DNA from: a virus
Length of the DNA: 20,357 nt
IMG/VR virus record: IMGVR_UViG_3300047481_001958
Span: 1-20,357 of that record
Reading direction: 5' to 3' (one strand)
Under the pieces are notes generated by a model. It saw only the letters and a list, made by a program, of their open reading frames with translations. It was not told where the DNA came from and searched no databases. The translations under genes were made by a program, and so were the position numbers. Below are positions 808-16,954 of this stretch, one piece after another; positions within the stretch are counted from its first letter, which is position 1, and each line of letters starts with the position of its first letter.

Positions 808-1175
808 CAGTCGTCCAAAGGCTCGTCGTTGCTGAGTTCCATCACAGCCGCAGTGGGTATGCCAGCCCGACTGCGCAACACAGCGAGGTCATCCACTGCT
901 TGATTTTCGTGCGCTTGATCGGCCCTGGGACCATCCTCGTCGAACACATTGTCCACGTCTACGGCACGTTTCAGCAGCTCCATCTTGAGCTGCAAGGGCG
1001 GGATCATCACTTCATCATCGGCGCCGAGATCTTGGTTGTCCACATTGTCAATGGGCATGCCACCTGCAGAAGGACGCAACTGGGCTGGGTTTCTAATCTG
1101 GGGATCAGGCTGGCCAGGATCTTCGGCCTGCTCAATGGCCGTGGCCAAGTGTCTAAGTACGTCACTGATTTTCAT
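807..1175 (-). CDS. Conserved acidic phage protein, unknown function
   Basis: A 122-residue acidic protein. Residues 1-20 (MKISDVLRHLATAIEQAED) form a likely amphipathic helix. A proline- and asparagine-rich linker follows. The middle block, VMIPPLQLKMELLKRAVDVD, is the part I associate with a recurrent unnamed family in aquatic T4-like phages. The end has AVLRSRAGIPTAAVMELSND and finishes EPLDD. No enzymatic motif, membrane segment or signal peptide is visible. The start ATG overlaps the previous gene's TGA (ATGA), with AAGGA 8 nt upstream, and its own TGA overlaps the next ATG. This coupling inside the virion operon suggests a structural or assembly role, but that is inference from context. 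Confidence 0.7.
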   Translation of the reverse strand: MKISDVLRHLATAIEQAEDPGQPDPQIRNPAQLRPSAGGMPIDNVDNQDLGADDEVMIPPLQLKMELLKRAVDVDNVFDEDGPRADQAHENQAVDDLAVLRSRAGIPTAAVMELSNDEPLDD

Positions 1176-1543
1176 TTGGCATATCCTTGAAAACTTTTGA
1201 TAGGGCTGGCTGTGTTGCCACCTGGAGGTTCTTGGCTGCGCATATCACCACGATTGAGATCTTGATATCGGCTGCCCATGGCCTTGTAGGCCTGTTTCAA
1301 CATGGCATCTTCTTCGGCTGTGTAAGGATGGCTGGTATTTGAGTTGTGTGTCCAGCTGGCGCTGGGTACATCGATGGGATTCACACCATCGGCTGCAGCC
1401 ACTGCCATCATCACACGATTGAGTTCATAGAATCTATCCCGGCCATCGGCGTCCCGGAACTTGTGAAGACCTCGAGTGCCCCAACGCTGTCGTTTGGTTA
1501 TGGGAGCTGGTCCGTTTTCAACTATGAATTCTTGGGCTCGCAC
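1172..1543 (-). CDS. Conserved phage protein with capsid-targeting-like leader
   Basis: A 123-residue protein of unknown function. It begins MRAQEFIVE|NGP, closely resembling the T4 internal-protein leader MKTYQEFIAE|A, which targets proteins to the prohead core and is cut after Glu by protease gp21. Here I7-V8-E9 fits the (L/I)-x-E cleavage rule. The body contains RWGTRGLHKFRDADGRDRFY, then YELNRVMMAVAAADG, SHPYTAEEDAMLKQAYKAMG and RSQEPPGGNT, a pattern I associate with an unnamed family of aquatic phage proteins. The start is GTG at 1543-1541, preceded by GGAGG with 8 nt spacing, one base after the upstream TAG. The stop overlaps the next ATG. Placement in the capsid interior is inference from the leader. 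Confidence 0.72.
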   Translation of the reverse strand: MRAQEFIVENGPAPITKRQRWGTRGLHKFRDADGRDRFYELNRVMMAVAAADGVNPIDVPSASWTHNSNTSHPYTAEEDAMLKQAYKAMGSRYQDLNRGDMRSQEPPGGNTASPIKSFQGYAK

Positions 1544-1544
1544 G

Positions 1545-1832
1545 CTACGAGCCTCCGCCGATCACTCCTGCTGTAGCCGAGCTAGCCGTGCCCAGTTCCA
1601 AGGCTGTCCAGTTTGACCCAGTGATGGTCACATGGTTACCAGCACCGGCATAGAGATCTTGCGAACTGTTGGCTGGCACAGAAATGGCCGCGGAGTAGAG
1701 ATTGCCCACAGCATTGGCTGTGCCCAGAGCCACAGCATAGACCTGGTAGGTCACAGCAGTGTTACCGGTACTGACTCGCAGCTTGTCGGTGTAGACTGTG
1801 GCATTGGCCAGGCTGGTGTAGACATTGGCCAT
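1545..1832 (-). CDS. Small Ala/Thr-rich probable virion protein
   Basis: A 95-residue, low-charge protein rich in Ala, Thr, Asn, Val and Gly. It begins MANVYTSLANATVYTDKL, contains the central strand-like run TAVTYQVYAVALG, and ends SSATAGVIGGGS. The composition suggests a small all-beta virion component such as a decoration or tail accessory protein; no named family is recognised. I chose ATG at 1832 because GGGAG lies 7 nt upstream. A GTG one codon earlier (1835) is possible but only 4 nt from that site. The ATG overlaps the TGA of the 55-residue gene before it (TGATG), and the downstream GTG gene starts one base after its TAG, so it is tightly embedded in the operon. Confidence 0.7.
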   Translation of the reverse strand: MANVYTSLANATVYTDKLRVSTGNTAVTYQVYAVALGTANAVGNLYSAAISVPANSSQDLYAGAGNHVTITGSNWTALELGTASSATAGVIGGGS

Positions 1833-1999
1833 CACTGATCTCCCTTGGGCTGCCCGGTATAGGGCTGATAGAGTCGGCGTGTTTGATCCAGCACGCCAGG
1901 AATGTCCACAGGCTGCTGGCGATAGTTGCCCGAGGCCGGCGAGTGCGGGTTGGGCTGTACTGGTGTGGTCAGTGCGGGGTCAACGGGTTTGTAGCTCAT
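1832..1999 (-). CDS. Small proline-rich protein (55 aa), unknown function
   Basis: A short gene filling what would otherwise be a gap. The start ATG (1999-1997) has a near-perfect AAGGAG SD 5 nt upstream, and the TGA overlaps the next ATG (TGATG), so initiation and coupling signals are both present. The 55-residue product begins MSYKPVDPALTTPVQPNP. It has SPASGNYRQQPVDIPGVLDQ in the middle and ends RRLYQPYTGQPKGDQ. It is rich in Pro, Gln and Tyr, with no hydrophobic segment, and looks extended or disordered; it may be a peptide that binds a partner in the capsid or tail. I recognise no named family. The coding call rests on the SD site, the spacing and the unbroken operon layout. Confidence 0.75.
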   Translation of the reverse strand: MSYKPVDPALTTPVQPNPHSPASGNYRQQPVDIPGVLDQTRRLYQPYTGQPKGDQ

Positions 2000-2008
2000 G
2001 ATTTCTCC

Positions 2009-2554
2009 TTACCACATCCGGCAAGACCAGTAACGGGCCTTGGTTCTCGGACCTGGGGTGGCACAACGATGTCGGGCACGGAAGTTCTTCCTGCGTCCGG
2101 GTATGTTTTTCTTGATGCGCATGTTGGGATCGCCAAAGTTCACTTTCTTGATGTTGCCAGTGCTGGGGTCCTTGACATAAACCTTGAACTTTTTGACATC
2201 TCCGCGCATGGGCTTGCCCAAGGGCACCTTGCGTCCCTGGTACTCTGCTTCGTCCATGGGTTGGAAAGTCACCTCGCTGTCACTGCCCGACAGCTCATTG
2301 AGACTGGCCATGGCTGCATCAGCTTCGGTTTCGGCCTGGTCCATGTCAGTGGTATAGCCTTCTACCAAGCCATAGTCGGACAAGATCTCCATCATCACAG
2401 CATCGGCTTCGAGTATGACTCGACCGTTCTGACTTTCCAACACTGCAGTTTCTACCAAGCATTCTTGGCGGATGTCAAAGACCACACTGTCGCCCACCAT
2501 GGGATTGGTCATGGCATATTCAGACTCGGCTAGATATTCGCGCAGGCTTTTCAT
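2009..2554 (-). CDS. Predicted head-targeted, multiply processed protein with conserved basic C-terminal domain
   Basis: A 181-residue protein of two parts. It begins MKSLREYLAE|SE, a close match to the T4 capsid-targeting leader MKTYQEFIAE|A, with the Glu at residue 10 in both. Residues 11-90 are acidic and hold further (L/I)-x-E sites at L33-V-E35, I47-L-E49, L63-V-E65 and L85-N-E87. From about residue 110 the protein becomes basic and compact: FKVYVKDPSTGNIKKVNFGD, then MRIKKNIPGRRKNFRARHRC and a Cys/Trp-rich end (RYWSCRMW). The C-terminal domain looks like a conserved small domain I have seen in aquatic phages and large viruses, but I do not assert its family number. The start has AAGGA 5-6 nt upstream, 8 nt after the preceding stop. 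Processing and DNA binding are inferred. Confidence 0.72.
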   Translation of the reverse strand: MKSLREYLAESEYAMTNPMVGDSVVFDIRQECLVETAVLESQNGRVILEADAVMMEILSDYGLVEGYTTDMDQAETEADAAMASLNELSGSDSEVTFQPMDEAEYQGRKVPLGKPMRGDVKKFKVYVKDPSTGNIKKVNFGDPNMRIKKNIPGRRKNFRARHRCATPGPRTKARYWSCRMW

Positions 2555-2562
2555 GGCGATCC

Positions 2563-4692
2563 TTATCGATTGAGCCCAGCTATCTCACGCAGGCGGGAAA
2601 TTTCATCTTCGCTCACAGAACTGATGGCAGTCACAGGCACAGTGCTCTGACCGTTACCGGCTATGTCACGCTTGGGCTTGTTGAGTCCTCCGGCCAAGCT
2701 ATAGTCTTTGGTGTCACCAAGATCAGCTGTGACTGGGTCGGGACTGTTGGCCAGATCTTCTTCCATCTGGCATGAGCCTTTGTGCATACCACCACAGCTG
2801 GGGCAAGATTGCTGAGACATGCTGTTCATGCCTGCGAGATTCAACATGCTGGCCAGCTTGTCGGCGTCATCATCGGTGGCTGTGACAGTGAGATTTTTGC
2901 CGTGCTCGGAGCTTACTGTGAGATTCACTGTCATGCTTTCAGAGATCATGCTTTCAAGTTCACGATTCCAGCTGTCATAGATACCCTTGCCGAACTGCAT
3001 GCTGCCTTTGCTTTTCTTCTCTCCTTCAGCAGAGGCAGTGGCCACTGAACCGGCTGTGGTGGTTTCTTTCACTGGCTTCTCTTTTTCATGATCTTGTTTT
3101 TCTTTCGCAACACGCTCACGATGTTTGGCGAAAGTTTTTTCTTGTTGAACTTTGCTGTCAGGGGAGGTTTTGCGAGCATCAGCTTCACCAGTGTCAACTT
3201 CCTTTACTTTCTCGGGCAGTCCTTTTTCTCGGGTCTTGGCAAACTTTTTCAGCTCACCTGCGGGCATCTTGGCCATCTCTTTGCTTGCGCCACGCAGTTC
3301 GCTTTTTGGAATCTCACCTTTCTGAGCAGCTCGAGCGATGCCAGCGGCAGCGCGTTGTGCCTTGCTCACAGCTTTTTCAGCTACCACTTCATCTCCAGGT
3401 CGATTGGCCTTGAGATAATCTCGAGCGGTGTCCACATACTCTTTGGCCAAAGTGATCTTCTTCTGTACCCATTCAGGCAAGTTTTCGTTGTCGCTGAGGA
3501 TGCTCTGCAGTTCTTCAGCAGCATCTTCTATGGTGCGAAGAAAGCTCTTGGCCATTTCACCTTCTTCGTCGTACTCGTCGCGATCATAGTCTTCTGCTAC
3601 ACCCTTGTCCTTCCCACGTATGCTCAACTTGTCTGCGGGGCTGGGTCCAAAGGCCTGGCCTACATTTTTCTTGGCAGGTAGCTGTGTTTTTTTGGCTTTG
3701 TCTAGTGCTCGTTGCTCAAGGTCGTTGAGTTTTTTGTGATCTTTGGCCAGCTGGGCGCGTTGTGCCTTGCGCTCGCCCCGACCTTCAGGATCGCCAATCT
3801 GCGAAGCTTCTGCCACATTTGCTTCGTTAAAAGATTCAAATCTTTCTACGATGCGATCCATTGCAAGTTCTATAATTTTGTCCATGTCGTCATCGTAGTG
3901 CAGACCATTGTCTCTGGCCACATCCATCATCATATTTTGAAGATATCTCTGAGTGGCTCTGCCCATTCGCCCGTCCACAGCATCCTGCAGTTTGTCAAAG
4001 TCTTGAGTGCTGGCGATTTCCTGCATGTCTATGTCAATCTCACTCATCACGCCTTCCGCTACATTTTGTTCGCGCATGAGCTTGCTCTTGCCTGTGGGAC
4101 CACGCGCACCAATGGCACGACCTGTGCCTTTGGGACGACCGCGACCACGTTTTTCTCCCGGTTCAGTGGCAGCTTTTTTCTTGGCGCCAGGCTTGCGATT
4201 TCCAAACTGATCAAAGTCATCGTCGTCGCCATCGTCGCCTTGATACTCTGAACCGTAGCTGCCGCGGTGTACTGTTCGTCCTGTCACCGGATCATATTCA
4301 GTGCGGCCTTCTTTGACCGGATACATTTTGCCATCTACTTTGAATTCTTTGGCGCCTGTGGCCCGTGCCTTGGCCAACTCGCCGCTGAACTCATTGCCTT
4401 CTTCCATTTCAGCTTCGTCCATTTTGTCATGCTTGGAACGGATCTTGGCCATGGTCTCTTTGCTGGCCCCATCGCGACCGGCTTTTTGCAGAGCTTTCAT
4501 ACCTTCTGCCCCATATTTCTTTTTTCCCAGATAGGCCTGCAGAGCTGATTCGTCCATGTCTTTGGCTTGTTTTGCGGCCTGGGCTATAGGCTCAGTGCGA
4601 TTGCCGTCCCGGTCAAGATCAGGAAAGTCAGGTCGGCGGCCTTCATTGATCAAGCTGTTGAGTCGTTGGTTGATTTCGTAGAAAAAAGACAT
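2563..4692 (-). CDS. Large charged modular protein with AT-hook and CxxC motif; predicted internal head protein
   Basis: A 709-residue, mostly hydrophilic and probably disordered or helical protein. The N-terminus has I15-N16-E17|G18, a possible prohead-protease site after a hydrophobic leader (MSFFYEINQRLNSLINEG). Residues 154-162 are very acidic, and 181-192 form an AT-hook (KRGRGRPKGTGR), a minor-groove DNA-binding motif. VAE tripeptides recur at E213, E295, E367 and E439. Long Lys/Glu/Ala helices span about 300-560. Residues 586-622 form a small beta-alpha module (LTVSSEHGKNLTVTATDDDA). Residues 630-641 carry C-x2-C-x3-H-x3-C, possibly zinc-binding. It ends ISRLREIAGLNR. AGAGGATAATAACC precedes the ATG, 5 nt after the upstream stop. 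No enzymatic domain is visible. A DNA-associated core or ejected protein is inferred; a scaffold-like or tail-length role is an alternative. Confidence 0.68.
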   Translation of the reverse strand: MSFFYEINQRLNSLINEGRRPDFPDLDRDGNRTEPIAQAAKQAKDMDESALQAYLGKKKYGAEGMKALQKAGRDGASKETMAKIRSKHDKMDEAEMEEGNEFSGELAKARATGAKEFKVDGKMYPVKEGRTEYDPVTGRTVHRGSYGSEYQGDDGDDDDFDQFGNRKPGAKKKAATEPGEKRGRGRPKGTGRAIGARGPTGKSKLMREQNVAEGVMSEIDIDMQEIASTQDFDKLQDAVDGRMGRATQRYLQNMMMDVARDNGLHYDDDMDKIIELAMDRIVERFESFNEANVAEASQIGDPEGRGERKAQRAQLAKDHKKLNDLEQRALDKAKKTQLPAKKNVGQAFGPSPADKLSIRGKDKGVAEDYDRDEYDEEGEMAKSFLRTIEDAAEELQSILSDNENLPEWVQKKITLAKEYVDTARDYLKANRPGDEVVAEKAVSKAQRAAAGIARAAQKGEIPKSELRGASKEMAKMPAGELKKFAKTREKGLPEKVKEVDTGEADARKTSPDSKVQQEKTFAKHRERVAKEKQDHEKEKPVKETTTAGSVATASAEGEKKSKGSMQFGKGIYDSWNRELESMISESMTVNLTVSSEHGKNLTVTATDDDADKLASMLNLAGMNSMSQQSCPSCGGMHKGSCQMEEDLANSPDPVTADLGDTKDYSLAGGLNKPKRDIAGNGQSTVPVTAISSVSEDEISRLREIAGLNR

Positions 4693-4697
4693 GGTTA

Positions 4698-5306
4698 TTA
4701 TCCTCTGGCAGTGGCGCCTGTGGCAGGCTTGGGCGGACGCTTGATCGTGGTCATGGGGCTCTTGGTGCCCTGTGGCAGATCATTGGTTGTACGGGCTGGG
4801 GGTGTACGCCCGCCGGCCACAGTGAAATCTGTGCGGTAAGCGTTTTGCAGTACCACATGATCATGCGGGGCTGCGCTGTAATCCTTCTTGAGCGCCCGTT
4901 GTTCGGCATCAGGCGCTGGTAAATCGGTGTCGGTGAGCAGGTCTTTGTTGAGATCTTCGATCTTCTTGCTTTCCTGGTCCAGGCTATCTTCATAGCCGAT
5001 GGTGTTCATCACAATGCGATTGGGATCCAGGCCCAAGAGCTGGCCGATCTGTTTGATCTGCGGCTCAATGGCCGGGTAGCGGAACTCCACATCGATGATG
5101 TGCATGGCCTGATTGGGGAAGGCTGGAAAGTCAGGTATTTCTTTTCTCACAGGAGTGGTCTTGGCCGTAGACATTTTAACGATGTCAAACTGTGCCAGTT
5201 TTTCCTTGAGATCACCAAAGAAACCCGGAGCCACATCACCCACCACTTTGATGCGATAGTTGTAGGTTCTTTCGCTTTCGGCCAGGTATTTTGCGAATGT
5301 TTTCAT
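4698..5306 (-). CDS. Conserved virion protein with T4-like capsid-targeting leader
   Basis: A 202-residue protein beginning MKTFAKYLAE|SER, the best match in the window to the T4 internal-protein leader MKTYQEFIAE|A: same length, M-K-T start, aromatic or hydrophobic residues at 4, 7 and 8, and cleavage-type L-A-E at 8-10. The next segment, TYNYRIKVVGDVAPGFFGDL, and the block around residues 60-90 with HIIDVEFRYPA look like an alpha/beta domain. Residues 118-150 are charged. The C-terminal 45 residues are a Pro/Lys/Thr tail ending PKPATGATARG. I associate this architecture with unnamed structural proteins of cyanophages and other aquatic T4-like phages. A late-type box (5325-5331) and an AGGA SD precede the ATG, so it may head its own late transcript. 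Confidence 0.72.
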   Translation of the reverse strand: MKTFAKYLAESERTYNYRIKVVGDVAPGFFGDLKEKLAQFDIVKMSTAKTTPVRKEIPDFPAFPNQAMHIIDVEFRYPAIEPQIKQIGQLLGLDPNRIVMNTIGYEDSLDQESKKIEDLNKDLLTDTDLPAPDAEQRALKKDYSAAPHDHVVLQNAYRTDFTVAGGRTPPARTTNDLPQGTKSPMTTIKRPPKPATGATARG

Positions 5307-5336: not shown

Positions 5337-5825
5337 TCAAGGATTTTGATCTTTGCCGCGCAGCAGGCGTTCCAAAAGATCGTTGCGATTCAGCACTGTA
5401 CCTTGTGCTGTGGGTATCTGTGCATCTTCGGGCTGTGTCTGATCCAGCCGCATTTTTTTCATCTGTAGATCGATCATCTTGAGCTTTTTGTTCATCTTGG
5501 CAGTCTTGGCCGTGATAGCATGGCCCAGCATGTTACTGGCCACAGAAAATATCTCACTGGCAAATCGCGAGTCCACTTGCATGCCTAGATCCATGAGATC
5601 TCGATAGCTGTTCTGTGCCAGATCTGCCAGCTCGTCCATTTCCGTGTCCGAGGCTTCCAGGCCACGCACTGCAGGCAGGGCTTGATCGATCTTGTCAATG
5701 GTGGCATCGAGATCGGCAAGATGTTGCTGGGCAGTGACTTCGGCTGTGGTGGATATGTCTGTGACACAGTGAACAGTGTCATCGGATTCTGGCAAGTCAA
5801 ACAGTTGTTCTAGTTTCCGCGTCAT
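5337..5825 (-). CDS. 16: Terminase small subunit, T4 gp16-like
   Basis: A 162-residue protein, close to the 164 residues of T4 gp16. It would regulate and load the large terminase gp17 at the portal during DNA packaging. It starts acidic (MTRKLEQLFDLPESDD), as T4 gp16 does with its Leu/Asp-rich N-terminus. The core is helical, with a predicted hairpin around residues 85-130 containing DSRFASEIFSVASNMLGHAI and MNKKLKMIDLQMKKMRLDQ, matching the T4 pattern of a long coiled coil in the middle. The C-terminus (TVLNRNDLLERLLRG) is a short helix after a linker. The identification rests on length, helical pattern and remembered alignment, so it is moderate. The ATG lies only 5 nt after a CTAAATA box and has no visible SD, suggesting a leaderless message. 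Confidence 0.66.
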   Translation of the reverse strand: MTRKLEQLFDLPESDDTVHCVTDISTTAEVTAQQHLADLDATIDKIDQALPAVRGLEASDTEMDELADLAQNSYRDLMDLGMQVDSRFASEIFSVASNMLGHAITAKTAKMNKKLKMIDLQMKKMRLDQTQPEDAQIPTAQGTVLNRNDLLERLLRGKDQNP

Positions 5826-5839: not shown

Positions 5840-6271
5840 CTATTTTGAGCCGTTGTGAAACATATCGTTTTCGGTGATCACACGGAAGGTGAGTCCGTTA
5901 CGGCGGCACCACTTTTGAGCAGCATCCCACTTGGCATAGTTCACTGCTACCACGGCACGATCACGACTGCTCATGCGAGATTCTATCACGCTTTGTTTCT
6001 TGGGTTTGATTTCTATGAGTTCGGCGCGCACAGTGTTGTCGCGGGTGCGATAAGTGACCAAGAAGTCTGGAACATACTGGCTTTTCTTGCCGGTCACGGG
6101 ATTCATGTAAGGTATGGCGATGCTTTCGCTGGCCCATTGCAGCACATTGTCGTTGGTATCGCAGAAGCGCATGAAACTCAGTTCCCATCCACTGCGATAT
6201 CTAGGTTGGCCGCGACCCACATACTTGGCAGGGTTGAGTACCTCGTAGCTGCCCTGCGCCCAACGAGTCAT
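5840..6271 (-). CDS. 4: Head completion protein, T4 gp4-like (PD-(D/E)XK nuclease-like fold)
   Basis: A 143-residue homologue of T4 gene 4 (also called 50/65), needed to finish DNA-filled heads so that tails can join. The start MTRWAQGSYEVLNPAKYVGR and the following PRYRSGWELSFMRFCDTN closely follow the T4 arrangement (GRYEVKNPEKY..., RSSWELKFMRWCDTN). WASESIAIPYMNPVTGK and YVPDFLVTYR come next. The PDF, then E87 and K89 in LIEIKPKKQ, has the spacing of PD-(D/E)XK nuclease cores, with PD near residues 68-69 and E-x-K about 20 residues later. The end contains WDAAQKWCRRNGLTFRVITE, also typical of such folds. The ATG overlaps the preceding stop (ATGA). Family call strong; any nuclease activity is inferred from the motif. 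Confidence 0.85.
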   Translation of the reverse strand: MTRWAQGSYEVLNPAKYVGRGQPRYRSGWELSFMRFCDTNDNVLQWASESIAIPYMNPVTGKKSQYVPDFLVTYRTRDNTVRAELIEIKPKKQSVIESRMSSRDRAVVAVNYAKWDAAQKWCRRNGLTFRVITENDMFHNGSK

Positions 6272-6627: not shown

Positions 6628-6899
6628 TAGATTCCGGGTCCTATGCGATTGGTATTTTGGATACGTTGCAATTCCGCAGGATCACTGGTGCCCGGCACTG
6701 GAAAGATCTGGCCGTTGCCGGTGTTGATGGCCTGGCGTACCGCACCGGCCATGCTCTGTCGTACTTGGTTGATGCCCAGGGCCACGCTCTGGCTCAACAC
6801 CTGGGACGGAGCTTGTTGCCTAGTGGCCACGAACACTGTGGGGGCCTGTGTGGCTCCCACTTGTCCCAGGAAGTTTTTGGCTTGTAGATCTTGTCTCAT
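6627..6899 (-). CDS. Small Gln/Ala-rich protein, unknown function
   Basis: A 90-residue protein, MRQDLQAKNFLGQVG at the start and IQNTNRIGPGI at the end, rich in Gln, Ala, Val and Asn. Residues 25-60 (TRQQAPSQVLSQSVALGINQ and onward) are likely helical; there is no catalytic motif and no membrane segment. The start overlaps the stop of the tube-like gene (ATGA) and the stop overlaps the next start (TAATG). The gene is therefore part of a translationally linked set with the second tube-like protein, the 119-residue protein and gp4. A minor virion or assembly component is the most likely role, from context only. Confidence 0.62.
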   Translation of the reverse strand: MRQDLQAKNFLGQVGATQAPTVFVATRQQAPSQVLSQSVALGINQVRQSMAGAVRQAINTGNGQIFPVPGTSDPAELQRIQNTNRIGPGI

Positions 6900-7711
6900 T
6901 CGTCGGCCAATGATTGGTTGATGTCAAATAGATTGCCTGCTCGCAGATCATAACGGAACAAGCTACCAAAGCCCGGAACTTCGATGTTGGGCGCTCCTTG
7001 ATAGTACTTCACTGTTTCGTAGGCTATGGTCATGCTGTGTTGCATGATACCGTTGCCTTGGCTGTAGTCATAGGTGTCATGGTTCCAATTAGTGATCAAA
7101 GGATTGATCAACACATATTCGCTGTAGTTCTTACCGCCATCGAAACCATAGATCCTGATGTCTTTGAAAAACGGCGGTTTACCGGTGCTGCCGGAGGTGT
7201 TGCCATCCGAGATGCTTTCGCCGATGTAACCCCAATCATTGACCAATCGATTTTGCGCATAGATGTCGCGGGCATTGTAGCCAAATCCTGTGGTACGGTT
7301 GGCCGATGGTCCCAAACTACCATTGGTGTTGTTTGGCGTGCCATACTGCTGGGTTGGATCTTTGTAGTAGTAGCTGTAGTAATTGTACCACAGATTGCGT
7401 GCGAGATCACCGCCGTCGTCGTGGAAAGTGATGTTCACAGGATCATAGTTGATACGGGTCTGCACCACACGCTTGCGATTGTATTGATTGAGAGTTTCTG
7501 TGGTGATGGTGTACTTGGGCAGTTCAGCAGTCTTGACGATATAGCTGAGTTCGCCCACCGATGTGGCATTCAACACACTGCGGAGACCGGGGATCTCCTG
7601 CACATTGATGTTGAACACCACATGGTAAAGGAACTTGAACTTGGGTTTAAGTTCATAACCAAAACTACGGAAGACTTTGCTGGCGTGGGTGTAATCACGC
7701 AGGCTTCCCAT
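6896..7711 (-). CDS. Tail-tube-like protein, possibly tube initiator or second tube paralogue
   Basis: A 271-residue protein beginning MGSLRDYTHASKVFRSFGYE. Features recall gp19/gp54-type tube folds: an N-terminal beta region (KPKFKFLYHVVFNINVQEIP), a KTAELPKYTITTETLNQYNR segment matching the usual 'pure beta, aim for the tube lumen' stretch, then RVVQTRINYDPVNITFHDDG, and near the end GIMQHSMTIAYETVKYYQGA. The middle (about residues 118-165) is a Gly/Asn/Thr-rich insertion. It follows the gp19-like gene by 13 nt. It may be a second tube protein or a gp54-like initiator, the protein that nucleates tube polymerisation on the baseplate. I cannot decide which without structure comparison. It ends DINQSLADE and overlaps the next gene as ATGA. 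Confidence 0.6.
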   Translation of the reverse strand: MGSLRDYTHASKVFRSFGYELKPKFKFLYHVVFNINVQEIPGLRSVLNATSVGELSYIVKTAELPKYTITTETLNQYNRKRVVQTRINYDPVNITFHDDGGDLARNLWYNYYSYYYKDPTQQYGTPNNTNGSLGPSANRTTGFGYNARDIYAQNRLVNDWGYIGESISDGNTSGSTGKPPFFKDIRIYGFDGGKNYSEYVLINPLITNWNHDTYDYSQGNGIMQHSMTIAYETVKYYQGAPNIEVPGFGSLFRYDLRAGNLFDINQSLADE

Positions 7712-7724
7712 TTACCAGCCCCGA

Positions 7725-8336
7725 TTAAGCTGTTGCGCCAACCGACGTGGTAGTTCCGCCATCAAAGGCATCGCTGATGTCGATCTGTGCAGCATTGTCA
7801 AACGCTATGGTCATGTTGATGGTTACAGGAGCCGATTCACCGTAGTTCATACCACCATAGTCCGCGCCTTTGAGATAGCAACCATACAATTCCCAAGTTT
7901 CAATGGCATTGGGCACATCCACCCCATTGCCACCGTCAAGGATTTCAAAGCGTGTGAGGAACTTGTAGTCAGCACCGGCACGAGCCGAACTCATCTCAAG
8001 GAAATCCATCTGCTTCTGGATCTGCTCGGCCACCAGTTTGGCCACTGAGTTGCTGGCATCATCGCGGATTTCGCAGGTGGTGTCAGCCCAGGTATATTTG
8101 CCGGCCAGTTTCAAGGTGCTGTTATAGATGGGCAACAGGATCTCTTCGAAGCTGAGATTGGGTCGGGCAAAACTGATCACTTGCTTGGTCAGCTCGGTAG
8201 TGGGTGTTGATGTGCCAAAGTTTTCAAACACCACTCGGAAGCGGTATCTCAGCTTGGGCATCAACAGACCTTGGGCGCTAGCGCTTTGATCGCTGGCCAA
8301 GGGCACTGTCATTTTATTCAACGATGAAACGGCCAT
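7725..8336 (-). CDS. 19: Tail tube protein, T4 gp19-like
   Basis: A 203-residue probable major tail tube subunit, longer than T4 gp19 (163 residues). It would stack as hexamers to form the channel through which DNA leaves the head. After a Ser/Ala-rich start it has KLRYRFRVVFENFG, then QVISFARPNLSFEEILLPIY, the region where gp19 proteins carry the strand and loop pattern of the tube inner wall. YTWADTTCEIRDDASN and MDFLEMSSARAGADYKFLTR come next, and YGESAPVTINMTIAFDNAAQ lies at the end, like the C-terminal strand of gp19. It directly follows the sheath gene, the T4 order. The ATG has AGGAG about 9 nt upstream and a GTAAATA box 21 nt upstream, so it may be transcribed independently. Confidence 0.75.
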   Translation of the reverse strand: MAVSSLNKMTVPLASDQSASAQGLLMPKLRYRFRVVFENFGTSTPTTELTKQVISFARPNLSFEEILLPIYNSTLKLAGKYTWADTTCEIRDDASNSVAKLVAEQIQKQMDFLEMSSARAGADYKFLTRFEILDGGNGVDVPNAIETWELYGCYLKGADYGGMNYGESAPVTINMTIAFDNAAQIDISDAFDGGTTTSVGATA

Positions 8337-8380: not shown

Positions 8381-11300
8381 TTAAGCCGCCGTTGCCGATA
8401 GCTCGCCGGTATTCTTGATACGCAGCGGGATATAGATAAACTCCACAGCTTTCACAGGCTCGATAGCGATATCAACCCAAAGCTCGTTTCTGTCGATGCG
8501 TGCGGGTGTGTTGTTGCTTTCATCGCAGACCACCAAGTAGTCATACAGGGCTCGCTTGGCCACCAGATCAATCATGAGGCTGTTGATCACATTGCTGATT
8601 TCGTTACGAGTGATCTGATCATTGGGTTCAAACAAGAACAGCTTGCCGATCTCTTCCAGTCTACCACGCAGGAAAGCCACCAAGCGTGCCACATTGATGC
8701 GATCCAGGGCCGAAGTGATGGCAGTCACGGTCTTGTTGCCAAAGTTGGTGATGCCCACGCCCGGGATGAAGGTGATGGGGTTGATGTCCAGTTCATAGAG
8801 CACATCACGCAGACCCTGTCCCACATTGACCTGGATGAACTCACCAGTGGTGGCATCCACATAACCGATCGCTGTGGCATTGTCAACCACACCGCGCTGG
8901 GTACCAGCGGGTGCCAACCATGGATAGCTTACTGCATCACTGCGGATGATGGTGCGCAGCATCATGTGGCTGGGCGGCTGTACCACGATGTTGCCGGAAA
9001 GATCCGTGGTCTGGCAGCTGGGATAGAACACGCCCAGATACTGGCTGCTGGTGCTGAGTCCGTCTTCGGTGTCCAGTCCAAGGCCATTGTTGTTGGTGGC
9101 CCAGGTGGTCACATCATTGCCAGTGGCTGCCAAACGCAAGGGTGTGTCACCCACAACAAACAAGGTGTTGTTGCGCTCGTTGCCCAGGGCCACCATATTG
9201 GGGATCAGCTCGGGATAGCCCGGAGTGGCCAGCAGGCTGAAGGCCAGCTGTTCTTCGCGTGCCTGTGTACTGGTATCAATGCCGGCTTTCATGGCTTCCA
9301 CAATGAGCTGGCGCTGGGCTTGACGACCGGCCCACATGGCACCGTTGTCGCGGTTGCCCGATGCTGTGAGCCAGGTGTTTTTCTCAGTGGGCAAGGTTTC
9401 ATCGGGGAAATCTGTGGCATTGAAATAGTTTTGCTGGAAGCTCTTGACGTTGTAGCCACTACGCCGTGTGTTGAACAGCAGCATACCTTCGGGATAAAGA
9501 CTGGGATCCGGTGCATCTAGGTCCAGATAGTTGCTGGTCAGCAAACTAACGATGGTAGGAATGGGATCGCTGACAGGGTCTGTGGTGCCGTTAGGAGCCC
9601 AACGTGCATCGGCAAACAGGATACCGTTTTCTGTGACCTGGTCAGTGGTATCAATTTCCACCCACTGGCTCACACTGTCCACAGACTCCCAACGATACAG
9701 CCGGGGATAATTTTCAAGATCACTGGTGTCTACCCAGAGATCGCCAAACTCCAAGGGAGATTCGGCAGTATCGGTCTGCGTGGTAGGTGCTGTGGCGGAT
9801 ATGATAGGCCCAGTGGCGTTACAAAGCGTGAGATTAAAACCACGCACATCATTGCTCACGTTCTGATATCCCAGCCAAGATCCGTTGTTTTGGATCATGA
9901 TGTCCACTTCGCTCACAGTGCTGTAATACCAGAGTCTGCCGTCGGCGGGATCTTGATCGGGCTCAACATCTGATTGATCATACCCAAAAACTGGGCTGCC
10001 TTGCCAGTTACTGAGCAGGATTGCCGTGGAACTGGATGTGGCTGGGCGCACAAGATCTGTGCCTGTGGTAAATCCTGCCAGGCTCAAGGGAGTGCCGGAT
10101 AGGTTGTCCAGCTGTATGATACCTCCCAAGCTGTGAGTAAACACAATAGCACCTGCGCTGTTGACACTGGCACTGACAAAAGGCACATTGGCTGCTGATA
10201 CCGCTGCAATGAAATCAGCCACAGTGGTGCCGTTGATGGTGGCTGTGCCGGTATTGGTTGTGGTGGTTCCAGCCTGACTTCCGCGTATGGTGAAACTGCT
10301 GCCGTTAACAAACGGTCCTGGAGTATTGGTATTGCCTGTGATGATGGTGGCACCCAAGGAATAGCGCTCGAAGATGATGTGATTGAACACTGTAAGTTCT
10401 AGGTTGTTGGAGTTTTCAACATAGACCTGATCCCACATCAATATGGTAGTGCCCACAGGAATGCTGCGGCCTCCGCCTGAAGGATCCAGCGCCAAGATCG
10501 CAGTCCTGTCGTTGGCGTATGCCAGGCAGGACTGCGACACAAAAGTGTCGAGCGCAGCACTGTACTTGGTCATAGTCACGTTCAGACCACCGGCCACTGG
10601 GCTCATGTTCTGCCACACAGATCCTGTGGGCTTTGGAAAATCAGCAGTGGTACGCCAGTTTGGACGACCTTGACTGTAGTCTGGCAGATATTCAGGAGCC
10701 AGATATTCACCGGCTGTGATGCCTAGAGCTGTGAGCAGTGCTGCGCCTGATGTGGGTCCTGCATCAATGGCAACCACACCGCCATTGGCCGATGAGCCAT
10801 CATTGGTGGCAAGAGAGTTGGCATAGATTGTCAGTTTGCCACTCACAGCGGCAGCAGTAACGCCAGGGATGGCCGCAGCCGTGATCACAGCAGCAAAGCC
10901 AGTTACGGTATTGGTTGCTCCCACCGTGACCAAGGTATCATTGATGTAAAGATCCGCCCCAATGGTCAACGAAGTTGGCGTACCGGTGCCTGTGATGGTG
11001 GGCCAGCATTCTTTCCAGTCATCGGTACCAATTTGTACCCAGTTATTGTAGTTGGCACTGTCTGTTCTTGCACATTTGTACCAGCCTTGGATGACTTTTT
11101 GTGCTCCTGTGGTCACAGGATCAACAATGACCACAGCATAATCACCGATGCTGCCAACAGTATCTAGGGGTGTAAAGTCTGAATTATCATAATCCACTAG
11201 ATCAGCGGTATCAGTGATCACTATAGGTGTTTCAGCAGTAAATGTCCCTGTGGTCTGGTTCCACTCGTTGATACCCCAAACCGAAGTGGCAGTGTTTACC

Positions 11301-11707
11301 CAGTAGGTGCCATCATCGGGATTGCCTGTGGGACGTGTCAGCGTTGCTGTAAGCTCGGTAAGATCAATGTCGACTCGCTGCACATAGGCACGATTGGTAA
11401 TGCCCAGAGCCGAGTATGCAGCCAGTAGCCCATATTCGTTGAGCTCGTAGCCGTTGATGGGTGTGCCAGCAGTGGTCTGATAAAAGAAAGGAACACCAAA
11501 CGTGGCAGTGAGCTCGCGCTGGCTGGTGATGAGATAGGTCTGGTTGGCATTGGCGGCCAAGGTACCTGCTGCCACGGCTGTTCCACTGCCGTTGATCTTG
11601 TTTTGTGCGGTGGCGATCAAGAAGTAGGGCACAGAGTTAACTGCGCTGGGGATGTATTGACTTTCATCAATGACTGTGACTTCAACGCCGGGTGAGAATA
11701 GAGCCAT
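8381..11707 (-). CDS. 18: Tail sheath protein, T4 gp18-like, greatly enlarged
   Basis: A 1108-residue contractile sheath subunit, against 659 in T4. The N-terminus MALFSPGVEVTVIDESQYIP is typical of sheath proteins. The C-terminal polymerisation domain is well conserved: FIPGVGITNFGNKTVTA, LEEIGKLFLFEPNDQITRNE (about residue 1029), LVVCDESNNTPARIDRNELW (about 1069) and FIYIPLRI. The middle is expanded. It holds two modules like the flagellin-hook IN repeat, near residues 245-325 (LYINDTLVTVG, ALLTALGITAG) and 475-545 (TATINGTTVADF). It also has several W/Y-rich segments with GxLWV-type strands (DGTYWVNTATSVWG, DGRLWYYSTVSE, FGDLWVDTSDLENYP). These are probably surface-exposed domains. The ATG has AAAGGAA 8 nt upstream and a late box at 11735-11742. 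Confidence 0.92.
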   Translation of the reverse strand: MALFSPGVEVTVIDESQYIPSAVNSVPYFLIATAQNKINGSGTAVAAGTLAANANQTYLITSQRELTATFGVPFFYQTTAGTPINGYELNEYGLLAAYSALGITNRAYVQRVDIDLTELTATLTRPTGNPDDGTYWVNTATSVWGINEWNQTTGTFTAETPIVITDTADLVDYDNSDFTPLDTVGSIGDYAVVIVDPVTTGAQKVIQGWYKCARTDSANYNNWVQIGTDDWKECWPTITGTGTPTSLTIGADLYINDTLVTVGATNTVTGFAAVITAAAIPGVTAAAVSGKLTIYANSLATNDGSSANGGVVAIDAGPTSGAALLTALGITAGEYLAPEYLPDYSQGRPNWRTTADFPKPTGSVWQNMSPVAGGLNVTMTKYSAALDTFVSQSCLAYANDRTAILALDPSGGGRSIPVGTTILMWDQVYVENSNNLELTVFNHIIFERYSLGATIITGNTNTPGPFVNGSSFTIRGSQAGTTTTNTGTATINGTTVADFIAAVSAANVPFVSASVNSAGAIVFTHSLGGIIQLDNLSGTPLSLAGFTTGTDLVRPATSSSTAILLSNWQGSPVFGYDQSDVEPDQDPADGRLWYYSTVSEVDIMIQNNGSWLGYQNVSNDVRGFNLTLCNATGPIISATAPTTQTDTAESPLEFGDLWVDTSDLENYPRLYRWESVDSVSQWVEIDTTDQVTENGILFADARWAPNGTTDPVSDPIPTIVSLLTSNYLDLDAPDPSLYPEGMLLFNTRRSGYNVKSFQQNYFNATDFPDETLPTEKNTWLTASGNRDNGAMWAGRQAQRQLIVEAMKAGIDTSTQAREEQLAFSLLATPGYPELIPNMVALGNERNNTLFVVGDTPLRLAATGNDVTTWATNNNGLGLDTEDGLSTSSQYLGVFYPSCQTTDLSGNIVVQPPSHMMLRTIIRSDAVSYPWLAPAGTQRGVVDNATAIGYVDATTGEFIQVNVGQGLRDVLYELDINPITFIPGVGITNFGNKTVTAITSALDRINVARLVAFLRGRLEEIGKLFLFEPNDQITRNEISNVINSLMIDLVAKRALYDYLVVCDESNNTPARIDRNELWVDIAIEPVKAVEFIYIPLRIKNTGELSATAA

Positions 11708-12148: not shown

Positions 12149-12761
12149 CTTGTGCATAGAGATGATCCAAGCTGGCATTGTTATCGAGCACACGGTCAAA
12201 TGCTGTACCTACCCAGGCGGTTTCCGAAGCGTGTATGTGCGCTTTTTCCAGCTCCATCTGGCTCAGAGCCCAACGCATGTTGTGTTCAGGGCCTCGATTG
12301 AAGCATTCGGCCGCTGAGTACCATTCAGGTTCGTCGCCACGTACCACACGCACTACACTGCCGCCGCTGTTCCTGATGGCTCGTATTTCATTGGGGAAAC
12401 GGCAATCTGAAATCACTACATCGTCTTGGCTGTTGCGCAGCTTGTTCTCTAGGCTGGCTATCCAGATATCGTCATGGAATCCCCGCCTAAACACTTCGGT
12501 GCCCCAGTTTTGCAGCACCCATCTTGGGGTGAGCTCGGGCATGTCCAGGCGCTGACTCCACCAGGCATCCACTTGCTCACGCCATTCGCGGGCCTGACGT
12601 GTGCGTCCTTCCAGCATGGTACGATCCCAGCCAAACACCGCACTAACAGCATCTTTGAGAGTGTTTGCAAAACTTTCTCGTCGGAATCCATGCACATTTA
12701 CCAGATAGTCAGCGATGGTGTCTTTGCCACTCCCAATAAATCCACAGATTCCTATGATCAT
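12099..12761 (-). CDS. 1: Deoxynucleoside monophosphate kinase, T4 gp1-like
   Basis: A 220-residue P-loop kinase that would phosphorylate dNMPs, including modified ones, to dNDPs for phage DNA synthesis. The N-terminus MIIGICGFIGSGKDTIADYL has the Walker A motif G7-x4-G12-K13-D14-T15 of the dNMP kinase family. Then come FANTLKDAVSAVFGWDRTML, PRWVLQNWGTEVFRRGFHDD and VVISDCRFPNEIRAIRNSGG, the latter typical of the gp1 family, and VVRVVRGDE. T4 gp1 has 241 residues. I start at ATG 12761: it places the P-loop at residue 7 and overlaps the upstream TGA as ATGA. A longer in-frame reading to 12869 would overlap the methyltransferase by over 100 nt. The TAG at 12101-12099 lies inside the convergent HNH-like gene. 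Confidence 0.88.
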   Translation of the reverse strand: MIIGICGFIGSGKDTIADYLVNVHGFRRESFANTLKDAVSAVFGWDRTMLEGRTRQAREWREQVDAWWSQRLDMPELTPRWVLQNWGTEVFRRGFHDDIWIASLENKLRNSQDDVVISDCRFPNEIRAIRNSGGSVVRVVRGDEPEWYSAAECFNRGPEHNMRWALSQMELEKAHIHASETAWVGTAFDRVLDNNASLDHLYAQVNDLVQGLQVATVDRS

Positions 12762-13414
12762 GTTTGCAAGTCCTTGGTGAAAATGTCGTTGATGTAGTTT
12801 GGGCCCACGCCCACGCAGTGGAAAGGTTCCAATGATGTCGGTGAAACAAAGTTGGGGTTGATCCACCAATCTTCAAAACTGAACACAGTGCCAGGATATC
12901 GATCCAATGTGTGTTGTGGTATCATGCTGGTCAACAAAGCCACATCGGGCACCACACATCGGTAACCAGCATGCTCCAATATCTGGCGGGATCGCATACG
13001 AGCATGTAGATTATCTGAGGTACCAGTATAGGCATCGTGTTCAAAAGTAATCACGGAAAAACAATGCACAGGGACCAGCTTTTCCAGTATGGCCAATGCT
13101 TGTTGAGCCAGGTCAACATCGATTTGCAGATAATCGCAGTGAGGCAGTAGATTGGTGTAGTCAAAATCCAAAGCATCGGCTACCGTGAGCAGAGTACGCC
13201 TGGTGTCTTTCCACAAAAGCGAATAATCTTCGATGTCTATGCTGATTCCATGCCAGCCAAAGTGCTGTTCAAGATGATGAGTATTGTTACCGTTGATTGG
13301 ATGTCCGGCACCAATTTCCAACCATGTTCCGTTGGTTTTTCCATCGAGCACCGTCCAAACAAACTGATCTTGCTTGACCTGTGATCGGCTACCCATAGGC
13401 CAAGCAGGCTTCAT
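12758..13414 (-). CDS. FkbM-type SAM-dependent methyltransferase
   Basis: A 218-residue protein with the class I methyltransferase pattern in the FkbM style. SQVKQDQFVWTVLDGKTNGT leads into motif I, E33-I-G-A-G-H-P-I, then NGNNTHHLEQHFGWHGISID with acidic motif II residues D60 and E62. HCDYLQIDVDLA (about 92-103) matches the FkbM IDVEG-like strand, and FEHDAYTG follows near 124. FkbM enzymes often O-methylate sugars or polyketides. Here, next to two glycosyltransferase-like proteins, glycan methylation is plausible, but the substrate is not shown. The ATG has AAGGAG 5 nt upstream and overlaps the exonuclease stop (ATGA). The C-terminal third (PGTVFSFEDWWINPNFVSP) is less typical. Confidence 0.75.
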   Translation of the reverse strand: MKPAWPMGSRSQVKQDQFVWTVLDGKTNGTWLEIGAGHPINGNNTHHLEQHFGWHGISIDIEDYSLLWKDTRRTLLTVADALDFDYTNLLPHCDYLQIDVDLAQQALAILEKLVPVHCFSVITFEHDAYTGTSDNLHARMRSRQILEHAGYRCVVPDVALLTSMIPQHTLDRYPGTVFSFEDWWINPNFVSPTSLEPFHCVGVGPNYINDIFTKDLQT

Positions 13415-13944: not shown

Positions 13945-15096
13945 TTACTTGATTGGCGTGAACTTGTCTACGATATCAATGATAAAACGGTCAATGCGGT
14001 CTACTCGTTGTCCTAATTCTTGCCTTAGTTCGGTCAATCGATGATAGTTGTGCTCTATGGTAGGGCGCATATCTAGGAGCATGCCCTGGATATCTTGGAT
14101 GGGCGATTCACACAATTTTTGGATCTGGGCTGATATTTGTAGTGCTCGTTGGGTGGGGTTATTGCCCCAATCATAACTTTCGTCAAACCAACGGTCAAAA
14201 GTACGGAATCCCAAACCACGCAGTTCACGCAGCGAGTTGGGCGACCCCAACAAGAAAAACGGACGTTGATGGTAAATGGTCTTAAAAGTTTTTTCAGTGA
14301 ACACAGGGTTGCCTGGCGTTTCCAGATAAGTTTCCACGATCACATTCACAAAACTCGTAGCAAACAATCGCGAATCTGTGATCCATCCACCGGACTCGCA
14401 GAAATCATCAGTGATGGCCAACTCGGGAGTGCTTTGATATGGCAACATGGATTCTACCCGGTCGGCCATGTCGTGTATCCAGGCATAGTGTTTGTGATCA
14501 AACTGTTGGATTACTTGCCTATAGAATTGCACTGCTGAATATCTTTGCTGGTTAGTATCAATCTGCTCGCAGTGGAAACTCGCATGTCCTTGGCCTAACA
14601 GATTGTGGCGTACAAGATCATGGAAAAGTGCAAATCTAGTGCTGTGAACACGTTTGATCAAGCACATGTAATGCTTGGTAACTTGTCCTACGTTCCAAGC
14701 ATCGTAGTCGACCAGGGGCTGTTCATTGTTGTAGAAGTCCCAGTAGGTTCCGTAGAATTCAGGCAGTTCGATGTAGGTGAGATTTTTGTGTTGCCATTGA
14801 AATCCCACAGGATGACGTTGTGGCAACACCACATAGATCCTGCGTTGGCCACTCATGAGTGCCAGCTGTAGGCGCTGTGCCAGATCGGCTGCATAAGGCC
14901 CAGCCACAAATCCGTCAAAGTTTACATAGTCGCCAAAGATTTCTGTGCCGCGATCTGGGGCCATGCAAGAGATCACCACATCCGGAGTGGACGGCAGCCC
15001 GTGCTGCAGGAAGCATTCCAACGAAATCACCGACACTCGGCCATGCCGGCGAGCATGCGCTTCCAGCAGCTGATGTCCCACCAGTTGGAATGGCAT
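13945..15096 (-). CDS. Glycosyltransferase-like protein B
   Basis: A 383-residue cytoplasmic-type protein without signal peptide or membrane helix. The N-terminal half has an alpha/beta pattern (RVSVISLECFL, TPDVVISCMAPD, RRIYVVLPQRHPVGFQW). The C-terminal half has the telling block at 247-310: TSFVNVIVETYLETPGN, VFTEKTFKTIYHQRPFFLLG and LRELRGLGFRTFDRWFDESY. That E-x-T-F-K plus 'PF.LLG..LR.LGF.TF' pattern resembles the nucleotide-sugar half of exostosin- or fucosyltransferase-like glycosyltransferases. Residue 265-301 matches protein A at 15878-16954, so the two are paralogues. It starts 5 nt after the gp13 stop. The substrate is unknown; the family call is from motif resemblance and needs a profile search. 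Confidence 0.55.
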   Translation of the reverse strand: MPFQLVGHQLLEAHARRHGRVSVISLECFLQHGLPSTPDVVISCMAPDRGTEIFGDYVNFDGFVAGPYAADLAQRLQLALMSGQRRIYVVLPQRHPVGFQWQHKNLTYIELPEFYGTYWDFYNNEQPLVDYDAWNVGQVTKHYMCLIKRVHSTRFALFHDLVRHNLLGQGHASFHCEQIDTNQQRYSAVQFYRQVIQQFDHKHYAWIHDMADRVESMLPYQSTPELAITDDFCESGGWITDSRLFATSFVNVIVETYLETPGNPVFTEKTFKTIYHQRPFFLLGSPNSLRELRGLGFRTFDRWFDESYDWGNNPTQRALQISAQIQKLCESPIQDIQGMLLDMRPTIEHNYHRLTELRQELGQRVDRIDRFIIDIVDKFTPIK

Positions 15097-15874: not shown

Positions 15875-15881
15875 TATTTAG
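15875..15881 (-). promoter_or_regulatory. Late-type promoter box CTAAATA immediately before gp13
   Basis: The minus strand reads CTAAATA, then CACTC and the ATG. Its TAA is also the stop codon of the upstream protein A (15880-15878). It sits inside a longer minus-strand operon and would give gp13 late expression of its own. The 5-nt spacing equals that at the gp16-like gene. Confidence 0.55.
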
Positions 15882-16954
15882 CCGGCTGGGTACAATGACC
15901 GCACCACTCCCGGTAACCAGTCTGCGAACTCTTGGGGCCAACGTTTTTTCAGCATCAGCAACACCTGTTGATTGTGATCGGCAGCTCGAACACAACGAGC
16001 TTGTAAACCAGCAAAATCCTGTGCCTGCAAACGAGCCACTGTGGCATCAATCAACTCCGGCATTTTTACCCCGCGCGTGGCTGACCCTAACTCATCGTAC
16101 TCTCGATGATTGACCACGTCATCCATGACGTCAAACCCCAGACTCCGTAGATACTGTATGCCCAGCCTCGGTCCCAGCATGATCCAAGGCACTGGTGTAC
16201 ACAATGCACGAAAAATCTTTTCGCTGAAGGCTACATTGAAATCGCCGAGATAGGTTTCTACAATCACATTGAGCCAGCTGGTCACATGGCTTTGTTCCAT
16301 GTTCATGTCATGATTGCGTGTGGGTATCATGAGAGAAAGATCACGTACCAATTCAGGATCAAGATCTTTCTGCCTGGCCAGCAGCTCACGGAATGTCTGT
16401 TGTTTGCGTGCCAGACTCTGATCTGCATCGTAGGTCCAGCAATTGAAATTCACCCAGGCTCGATCCATGAGTGCATCAAAGCTGCCCGAACCTTTGACCA
16501 GCCTGGCCAGCAAGGCACTGCGGTGGATGTCCATGCGATTGGCTGCAAAGTTGAAATCTCTCTGCGGACGCCAGTCTTGATCTTCGGGCACATACGAATA
16601 CAACCCCAAAAAGGACAAAGGAAGCCGCTGATACACAAAATCGGGCTGCACCAAAAGGTGGTTGTCGGTGATCACAATGTCGCGGTCCGCGAACCACTGT
16701 GCAGGTGGTCGGCTTCGCCTGGCTCCGCAGAACAGTATATCATCTACCAGACAAATCACAGCCCGCTGGCCATCACGATGCCAGACCTTGACATTGAGTC
16801 CGTCGGGATCATCATCGGGTCCTGGTTCAAAGCCTAGATTCCAAAATAGGTCACGGAACAACAGACTGATTTTGTCTTCTTGCAGCACACAACGACTTTT
16901 GCGGAAAATCTCGCTGGCTGTTCGTCCCGGGGATGGATCGCTGTAATCCAGCAT
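15878..16954 (-). CDS. Glycosyltransferase-like protein A
   Basis: A 358-residue soluble protein, paralogous to protein B. The shared C-terminal block lies at about 226-289: SWLNVIVETYLGDFNVAFSE, KIFRALCTPVPWIMLG, YLRSLGFDVMDDVVNHREYD. The N-terminal half has VKVWHRDGQRAVICLVDDIL and WFADRDIVITDNHLLVQPDF, alpha/beta-like. The middle has RDFNFAANRMDIHRSALLAR and AWVNFNCWTY, a pattern recurring in glycosyltransferase-like proteins of aquatic phages. A role in sugar transfer to LPS, capsule or a phage component is inferred. I start at ATG 16954, which overlaps the previous TGA (TGATG); a GTG at 16957 would add one Met. Its TAA lies within the late box of gp13. Confidence 0.55.
   Translation of the reverse strand: MLDYSDPSPGRTASEIFRKSRCVLQEDKISLLFRDLFWNLGFEPGPDDDPDGLNVKVWHRDGQRAVICLVDDILFCGARRSRPPAQWFADRDIVITDNHLLVQPDFVYQRLPLSFLGLYSYVPEDQDWRPQRDFNFAANRMDIHRSALLARLVKGSGSFDALMDRAWVNFNCWTYDADQSLARKQQTFRELLARQKDLDPELVRDLSLMIPTRNHDMNMEQSHVTSWLNVIVETYLGDFNVAFSEKIFRALCTPVPWIMLGPRLGIQYLRSLGFDVMDDVVNHREYDELGSATRGVKMPELIDATVARLQAQDFAGLQARCVRAADHNQQVLLMLKKRWPQEFADWLPGVVRSLYPAG

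Follow-up and report, generated by a model that had tools for sequence, protein, structure and literature searches.

The window analysed here is a 20,357-base virus fragment (IMG/VR record IMGVR_UViG_3300047481_001958, positions 1 to 20,357), and by its gene content (gp4-, gp18- and gp19-type genes) it comes from a T4-superfamily myovirus. Four proteins of 202, 709, 181 and 123 residues, all encoded in the minus-strand run downstream of the gp4 gene, begin with a short leader resembling the T4 capsid-targeting sequence (CTS). We judge that these leaders are T4-type capsid-targeting propeptides, carried by core proteins and packaged cargo, with a probability of roughly 0.84. The sequence-only reading had proposed such a set of head-targeted, processed proteins; the open reading frames and leaders are as it described them, and the phenomenon is larger in extent than it stated. 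Several independent lines of evidence point to head targeting and processing: the T4-mapped positions are matched, the leaders are conserved and one of them is found again and again on bodies with no relation to each other; relatives carry a matching site on the major capsid protein and a gp21-type protease wherever gp23 is complete; and, to go by the published proteomics, one cyanophage leader protein is present in virions.

The 202-residue protein (4698..5306, minus strand) starts MKTFAKYLAE/SE, where the slash marks the putative cut, and continues with SERTYNYRIKVV after that site. Its leader codons 1-10 (5277..5306) place F, Y, L and E at the CTS positions 4, 7, 8 and 10 mapped in T4 (PMC9026906). 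The 181-residue protein (2009..2554, minus; leader codons 1-10 at 2525..2554) starts MKSLREYLAE/SE, and both leaders align directly with the T4 positions. The leader of the 123-residue protein (1172..1543, minus, GTG start; leader codons 1-9 at 1517..1543), MRAQEFIVE/NG, does so when counted back from Glu. In the 709-residue protein (2563..4692, minus) the leader is looser: codons 1-17 (4642..4692) read MSFFYEINQRLNSLINE, followed by G, which gives an early LINE/G site.

Pfam and PHROG searches gave no match to T4 IPI, IPII, IPIII or Alt in any of the four proteins. The 709-residue protein contains a DUF3008 segment (PF11450, E=2e-14), and the 181-residue protein ends in a Cys-containing HVA1-type domain (ARYWSCRMW; phrog_7595, E=2.8e-11). 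The AlphaFold2 model of the 202-residue protein, with a mean predicted local distance difference test (pLDDT) score of 68.6, shows a helix of low confidence at residues 4-10, formed by the leader and set apart from the rest, then a predicted ferredoxin-like fold at about 14-102 and a disordered tail. The matches of this fold in the PDB were weak and non-specific, mostly ribosomal S6 and ACT/PII-type, the viral matches were uncharacterised phage proteins, and no function came from the structure searches. The model of the 123-residue protein was unusable (pLDDT 61.8).

In T4 IPIII, targeting depends on residues 4 and 7 and processing on residues 8 and 10 (PMC9026906). A CTS motif written from the T4-mapped positions (M x1-2 [hydrophobic] xx [aromatic][LIV] x E) matches 3 of the 26 window genes, compared with 0.03 expected from shuffling of residues 2-16, and none of 127 internal Met codons. 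The relatives' records have matches above expectation as well: 5 vs 0.37 in G001, 6 vs 0.27 in G002, 6 vs 0.29 in G004, 3 vs 0.19 in G005 and 2 vs 0.19 in G006. HTVC008M has no match to this motif. A second, differently written leader motif gave the same picture of enrichment. It could be argued that short leaders contain LxE by accident, given that the motif is short and that some 24% of random windows of 34 residues contain [LI]xE. For the 9-10-residue leaders, however, the shuffled, scrambled, reversed-pattern and internal-Met controls refute a chance origin, and its probability is negligible.

The leaders are also conserved among homologues. In 27 aligned sequences of the 202-residue family, with identity down to 37%, E10 is invariant (27/27), with L or I at position 8 and an aromatic residue or His at position 7. 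Glu at residue 10, as in T4, had been pointed out for the 202- and 181-residue proteins. Most syntenic copies of the 181-residue protein retain MK[SNT][LF]xxY[LI]xE; a few relatives deviate from it, among them L138, which has MPGLKHYIDLVE in the place of the 181-residue protein. The isolate C48C1 has the leader on three proteins, including a relative of the 181-residue protein that starts MKKFKQYIDE/G. The looser leader of the 709-residue protein holds up too: LxE lies inside the first 34 residues in 33/33 distinct homologues, against 24% of control windows from the same proteins, a count to be read as a statement of conservation with no p-value, since the homologues are not independent. The distance from the start varies (QLNE, LLNE, DLTE, NLSE).

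Among large records that carry leaders, the ten in which gp23 is complete (G001, G003-G007, G010-G013) all have Peptidase_S77, the gp21-type family. T4 gp23 is cleaved at FLTE/A. Before the conserved body of the relatives' major capsid protein (GVQPM region) there is RKYLKE/NAS in G001, G005 and G006 and QLLAE/SSAG in G004, and we take these sites to sit at the position of the T4 one. Compared with the leaders, they give a common signal, [YFL][LI]xE/[SNA].

The leader of the 123-residue protein is a copy of a module that we followed through IMG/VR. The pattern MRAxEF[ILVM]xE gave at least 120 matches, while a scrambled pattern of equal information content gave 30 in the whole collection. An in-frame stop lies at most 60 nt upstream in 87 of the 122 matches listed but in only 2 of 22 scrambled matches (p=4e-8), which marks the real ones as starts of genes. 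In 21 whole records the MRAxEF pattern has 33 matches vs 1 for the reversed pattern. The 123-residue protein belongs to the largest MRAxEF family, in which M1, R2, A3, E5, F6 and E9 are invariant, an invariance that is built in, as it was this pattern that picked out the other members. Among the matches listed the leader codons show synonymous variation and there is no shared DNA motif upstream, which indicates that selection acts on the peptide.

The same data bear on whether the N-terminus has some other role, such as translation start context, a folding cap, or docking to a chaperone or in tail assembly, its likeness to the CTS being convergence. The bases immediately upstream of MRAxEF leaders are A-rich, and homologues of the 202-residue protein in the phages PA5oct and Phosso retain an amphipathic start without LxE. 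Against this stand the synonymous codon variation and the lack of a common upstream motif, the invariance at Glu and the hydrophobic residues and not at the start context, and the presence of the same signal at the capsid protein cleavage site. We therefore find another role improbable.

What the module is attached to varies widely. Across all loci covered, 170 distinct true-start proteins of uncultured phages carry the leader and fall into 31 clusters without detectable similarity beyond it; the number of unrelated bodies is to be read as an upper-side count, because distant homologues can escape single-linkage clustering at E<0.01, and some singleton clusters may be chance matches. Pfam recognises ART-PolyVal (E=5e-14), a GNAT acetyltransferase (E=1e-6), DUF6267 (E=1e-32) and LysM among the bodies of leader proteins, and the majority have no Pfam match at all. 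The LysM protein, in G004, has a variant leader, MKTNEFLTE. Recognisable effector-type bodies in the relatives are limited to one ADP-ribosyltransferase and GNAT acetyltransferases; neither this ADP-ribosyltransferase, in G004, nor the 123-residue protein has a relative among isolates. ART-PolyVal is not a common cargo: it was found in 1/49 records, and there it has the leader. Nor is the leader tied to the DUF6267 body, as the annotated cyanophage DUF6267 starts that were examined are without it while C48C1 has it.

Some further observations concern these proteins. By eye, without confirmation from searches, there are HAD-, ParB-, nucleotidyltransferase- and peptidoglycan-binding-like sequences among them. 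Leader proteins are clustered a second time at G002:172857-182055 and G004:203054-232448, where the looser leaders MRFKQIVE, MRFSEIISE and MNFKELLE occur; the cluster adjoins a Dps/ferritin-like gene (by eye) in both, has a hydrolase-like gene in G002, and is likely a cargo locus. Tiny basic proteins (L234:10069-, L264:2699+, L346:4923+ and G002:178738-178944) consist of a leader, then G[SI]xAxVxxP and a Lys/Arg-rich end, and the 709-residue window protein contains TTAGSVATA, resembling that stretch. The unrelated 202-residue (KSPMTTIKRPPKPATG) and 123-residue (SPVKxFKGYPR; SPIKSFQGY in the window) families have an SPxx[FI][KRQ] C-terminal end in common, and a similar end occurs in 71/170 leader proteins, the majority of those 71 in one large family. 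It is possibly a second signal.

Taken as capsid-targeting propeptides, the leaders would work as follows. The N-terminal 9-17 residues would bind the growing prohead core, with the residues at T4 positions 4 and 7, which are hydrophobic or aromatic, making the contact. The Peptidase_S77 prohead protease would recognise [LI]xE, as it would on the major capsid protein, and cut behind its Glu, leaving the mature bodies within the head. The proteins of 202, 709 and 181 residues from the conserved operon are likely part of the core or associated with the genome. Those with MRAxEF would form a variable cargo class, some of which are probably ejected with the DNA. For the group of phages to which the window belongs, we infer targeting, packaging, cleavage, ejection and cargo function from these sequence comparisons; an anti-defence activity of the leader proteins is a suggestion.

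A more far-reaching version holds that MRAxEF[ILV]xE is a mobile head-loading tag, spread over a clade of uncultured, often jumbo, T4-superfamily phages and placed on dozens of unrelated proteins, which delivers a changing arsenal of effectors to the host along with the DNA. We lean slightly towards it. The cargo proposed for such a tag comprises the ADP-ribosyltransferase, acetyltransferases, nucleotidyltransferase-like, ParB-like and small basic Cys-rich proteins, and many of no known kind.

Alternatively, the leaders may be true signals for core binding and cleavage on proteins that are scaffold, core or DNA-condensing parts of the head and not ejected effectors. The 202-, 709- and 181-residue genes form a conserved operon adjoining gp4 and tail genes, which is not an accessory locus; the 709-residue family has 5.2 [LIV]xE[AGS] sites per protein vs 1.8 expected, like a degraded core protein; and the T4 core proteins gp22, gp67 and gp68 are of a comparable kind (PMC9026906). 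However, this explanation leaves open why some bodies are enzymes (ADP-ribosyltransferase, acetyltransferases, DUF6267) and why there are 31 unrelated families. As an account of all leader proteins it is rather unlikely, although for the conserved operon set it is quite possible that the proteins are structural and not ejected.

Evidence from virions of cultured phages supports the propeptide reading indirectly, through one cyanophage protein and one PA5oct protein. In the cyanophage S-SM1 the cytidylyltransferase T4-GC190 starts MKKFSAFLNE/A and is the sole convincing annotated gene with the motif. It is among 41 proteins detected in purified virions (PMC3037559). About 230 S-SM1 proteins exist, so the chance of coincidence is about 1/6, and the detection counts as support, not proof. 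Copies of the enzyme in related cyanophages start MRFRQFIIE/A (S-WAM1) and MRFLDFIKE/A (P-TIM40). PA5oct has a syntenic homologue of the 202-residue protein (28.8% identity over residues 1-102, E=2e-4), annotated as 'structural protein, ESI-MS/MS'.

Several observations weigh against the propeptide reading. The PA5oct homologue (MKSFRDYYDAS) and the one in Phosso (MKNFYEYLSSV) are without LxE, and as the former is found in virions, processing is not universal. In the proteins of PA5oct annotated as detected by mass spectrometry the strict leader motif has no match; LxE-type N-termini occur in 6/92 detected proteins vs 8/383 others, a weak enrichment (p=0.036) with several motifs tried. PA5oct thus does not use this consensus. 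Further, three large, leader-bearing records (G002, G014, G015) have no S77 match, and the window, being a 20-kb fragment, is itself without protease and capsid genes. In the S77-negative records gp23 is absent (G002, G015) or cut by the contig end (G014). In T4 mutants, targeting is possible without processing (PMC9026906). The loss of LxE in PA5oct and Phosso fits with this, and it is equally a warning that in some phages the leader may stay uncut.

The closest known system is the T4 CTS on IPI, IPII, IPIII and Alt, which is cut by gp21. Common to both are a 10-residue N-terminal propeptide with hydrophobic or aromatic residues at 4 and 7, L/I at 8 and E at 10, unrelated mature bodies, an ADP-ribosyltransferase cargo (Alt is a leader-bearing ADP-ribosyltransferase; PMC9026906), and an S77 protease with a matching gp23 site, here in relatives. 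In contrast to T4, the window group uses a consensus of its own with 9 residues, MRAxEF[ILV]xE, on up to 31 families, several of its leaders are in an operon adjoining gp4 and tail genes, and the bodies of the window proteins have no Pfam or PHROG match to the T4 internal proteins or Alt. The Kyanoviridae virion proteins are similar in having CTS-like starts in S-SM1, S-WAM1 and P-TIM40, with the S-SM1 protein in virions; S-SM1 differs in being a single clear case, whose leader PMC3037559 is not known to interpret.

More distant are the ejection proteins of phiKZ and SPN3US. In these phages, too, numerous proteins inside the head have N-terminal propeptides that the prohead protease removes by cutting behind Glu, but their motif is AxE or SxE and the propeptides are mostly longer than 100 residues (PMC5694885). 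The polyvalent proteins and head-packaged ADP-ribosyltransferases described by the Aravind group share the ART-PolyVal domain and the logic of an injected effector (PMC5512222, PMC9503650). Here, in contrast, the protein is short and single-domain with its own CTS-like leader, and the leader, not a portal or MuF fusion, would signal packaging.

The sequence-only reading knew of no earlier description of such a set for this group. Our searches of open-access PMC literature turned up none either, nor any account of the MRAxEF consensus. That T4-like phages might generally use the CTS to load varied proteins had been put forward before, in a review (PMC9026906). The concept and its possible generality are thus published, while the MRAxEF consensus and the range of cargo appear to be new.

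The surroundings of the leader genes in the window are as follows. A whole-window search of the phage collection at the DNA level gave no match. The gp4-type T4 head completion/closure protein, with a TnsA-like fold, is at 5840..6271 (minus; phrog_218, E=1.5e-42; PF08722, E=2.5e-22). Two T4-type tail tube proteins lie at 6896-7711 and 7725-8336 (span 6896..8336, minus; phrog_4542/13438) and a gp18-type tail sheath protein at 8381..11707 (minus; phrog_10581, E=1.4e-212). The 162-residue neighbour at 5337..5825 (minus, phrog_16202) serves as an internal negative control: its N-terminus, MT[RK]KLExLF, is conserved and LxE is not, so the leaders are not a general property of local gene starts.

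Some side observations belong here. In L090, L098, L115 and L117 a gene of about 215 residues, HNH homing endonuclease-like by eye, lies between the homologues of the 202- and 709-residue genes. The HVA1-type Cys-containing domain at the end of the 181-residue protein occurs in 27 phage records, including small Pelagibacter and Roseobacter phages (32-54 kb). Two similar-looking window proteins (13945-15096 and 15878-16957, minus), among structural genes, have NVIVETYL...F[ST]EK motifs in common. The gene at 12758-13414 (minus), adjoining a dNMP kinase and an exonuclease, looks by eye like an FkbM-type methyltransferase and has no PHROG match.

Proteins injected by phages are hard to spot because most have no known domain. 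The leader would let sequence tell which proteins such phages probably pack with their DNA. If it is a head-loading tag, a sequence rule would turn hundreds of uncharacterised proteins of uncultured phages into candidate injected effectors, which could be sorted by body family and tested individually. The published S-SM1 virion proteome may already contain one case. A mechanism worked out in T4 alone would then hold for much of the T4 superfamily's wider range, across a broad branch of it.

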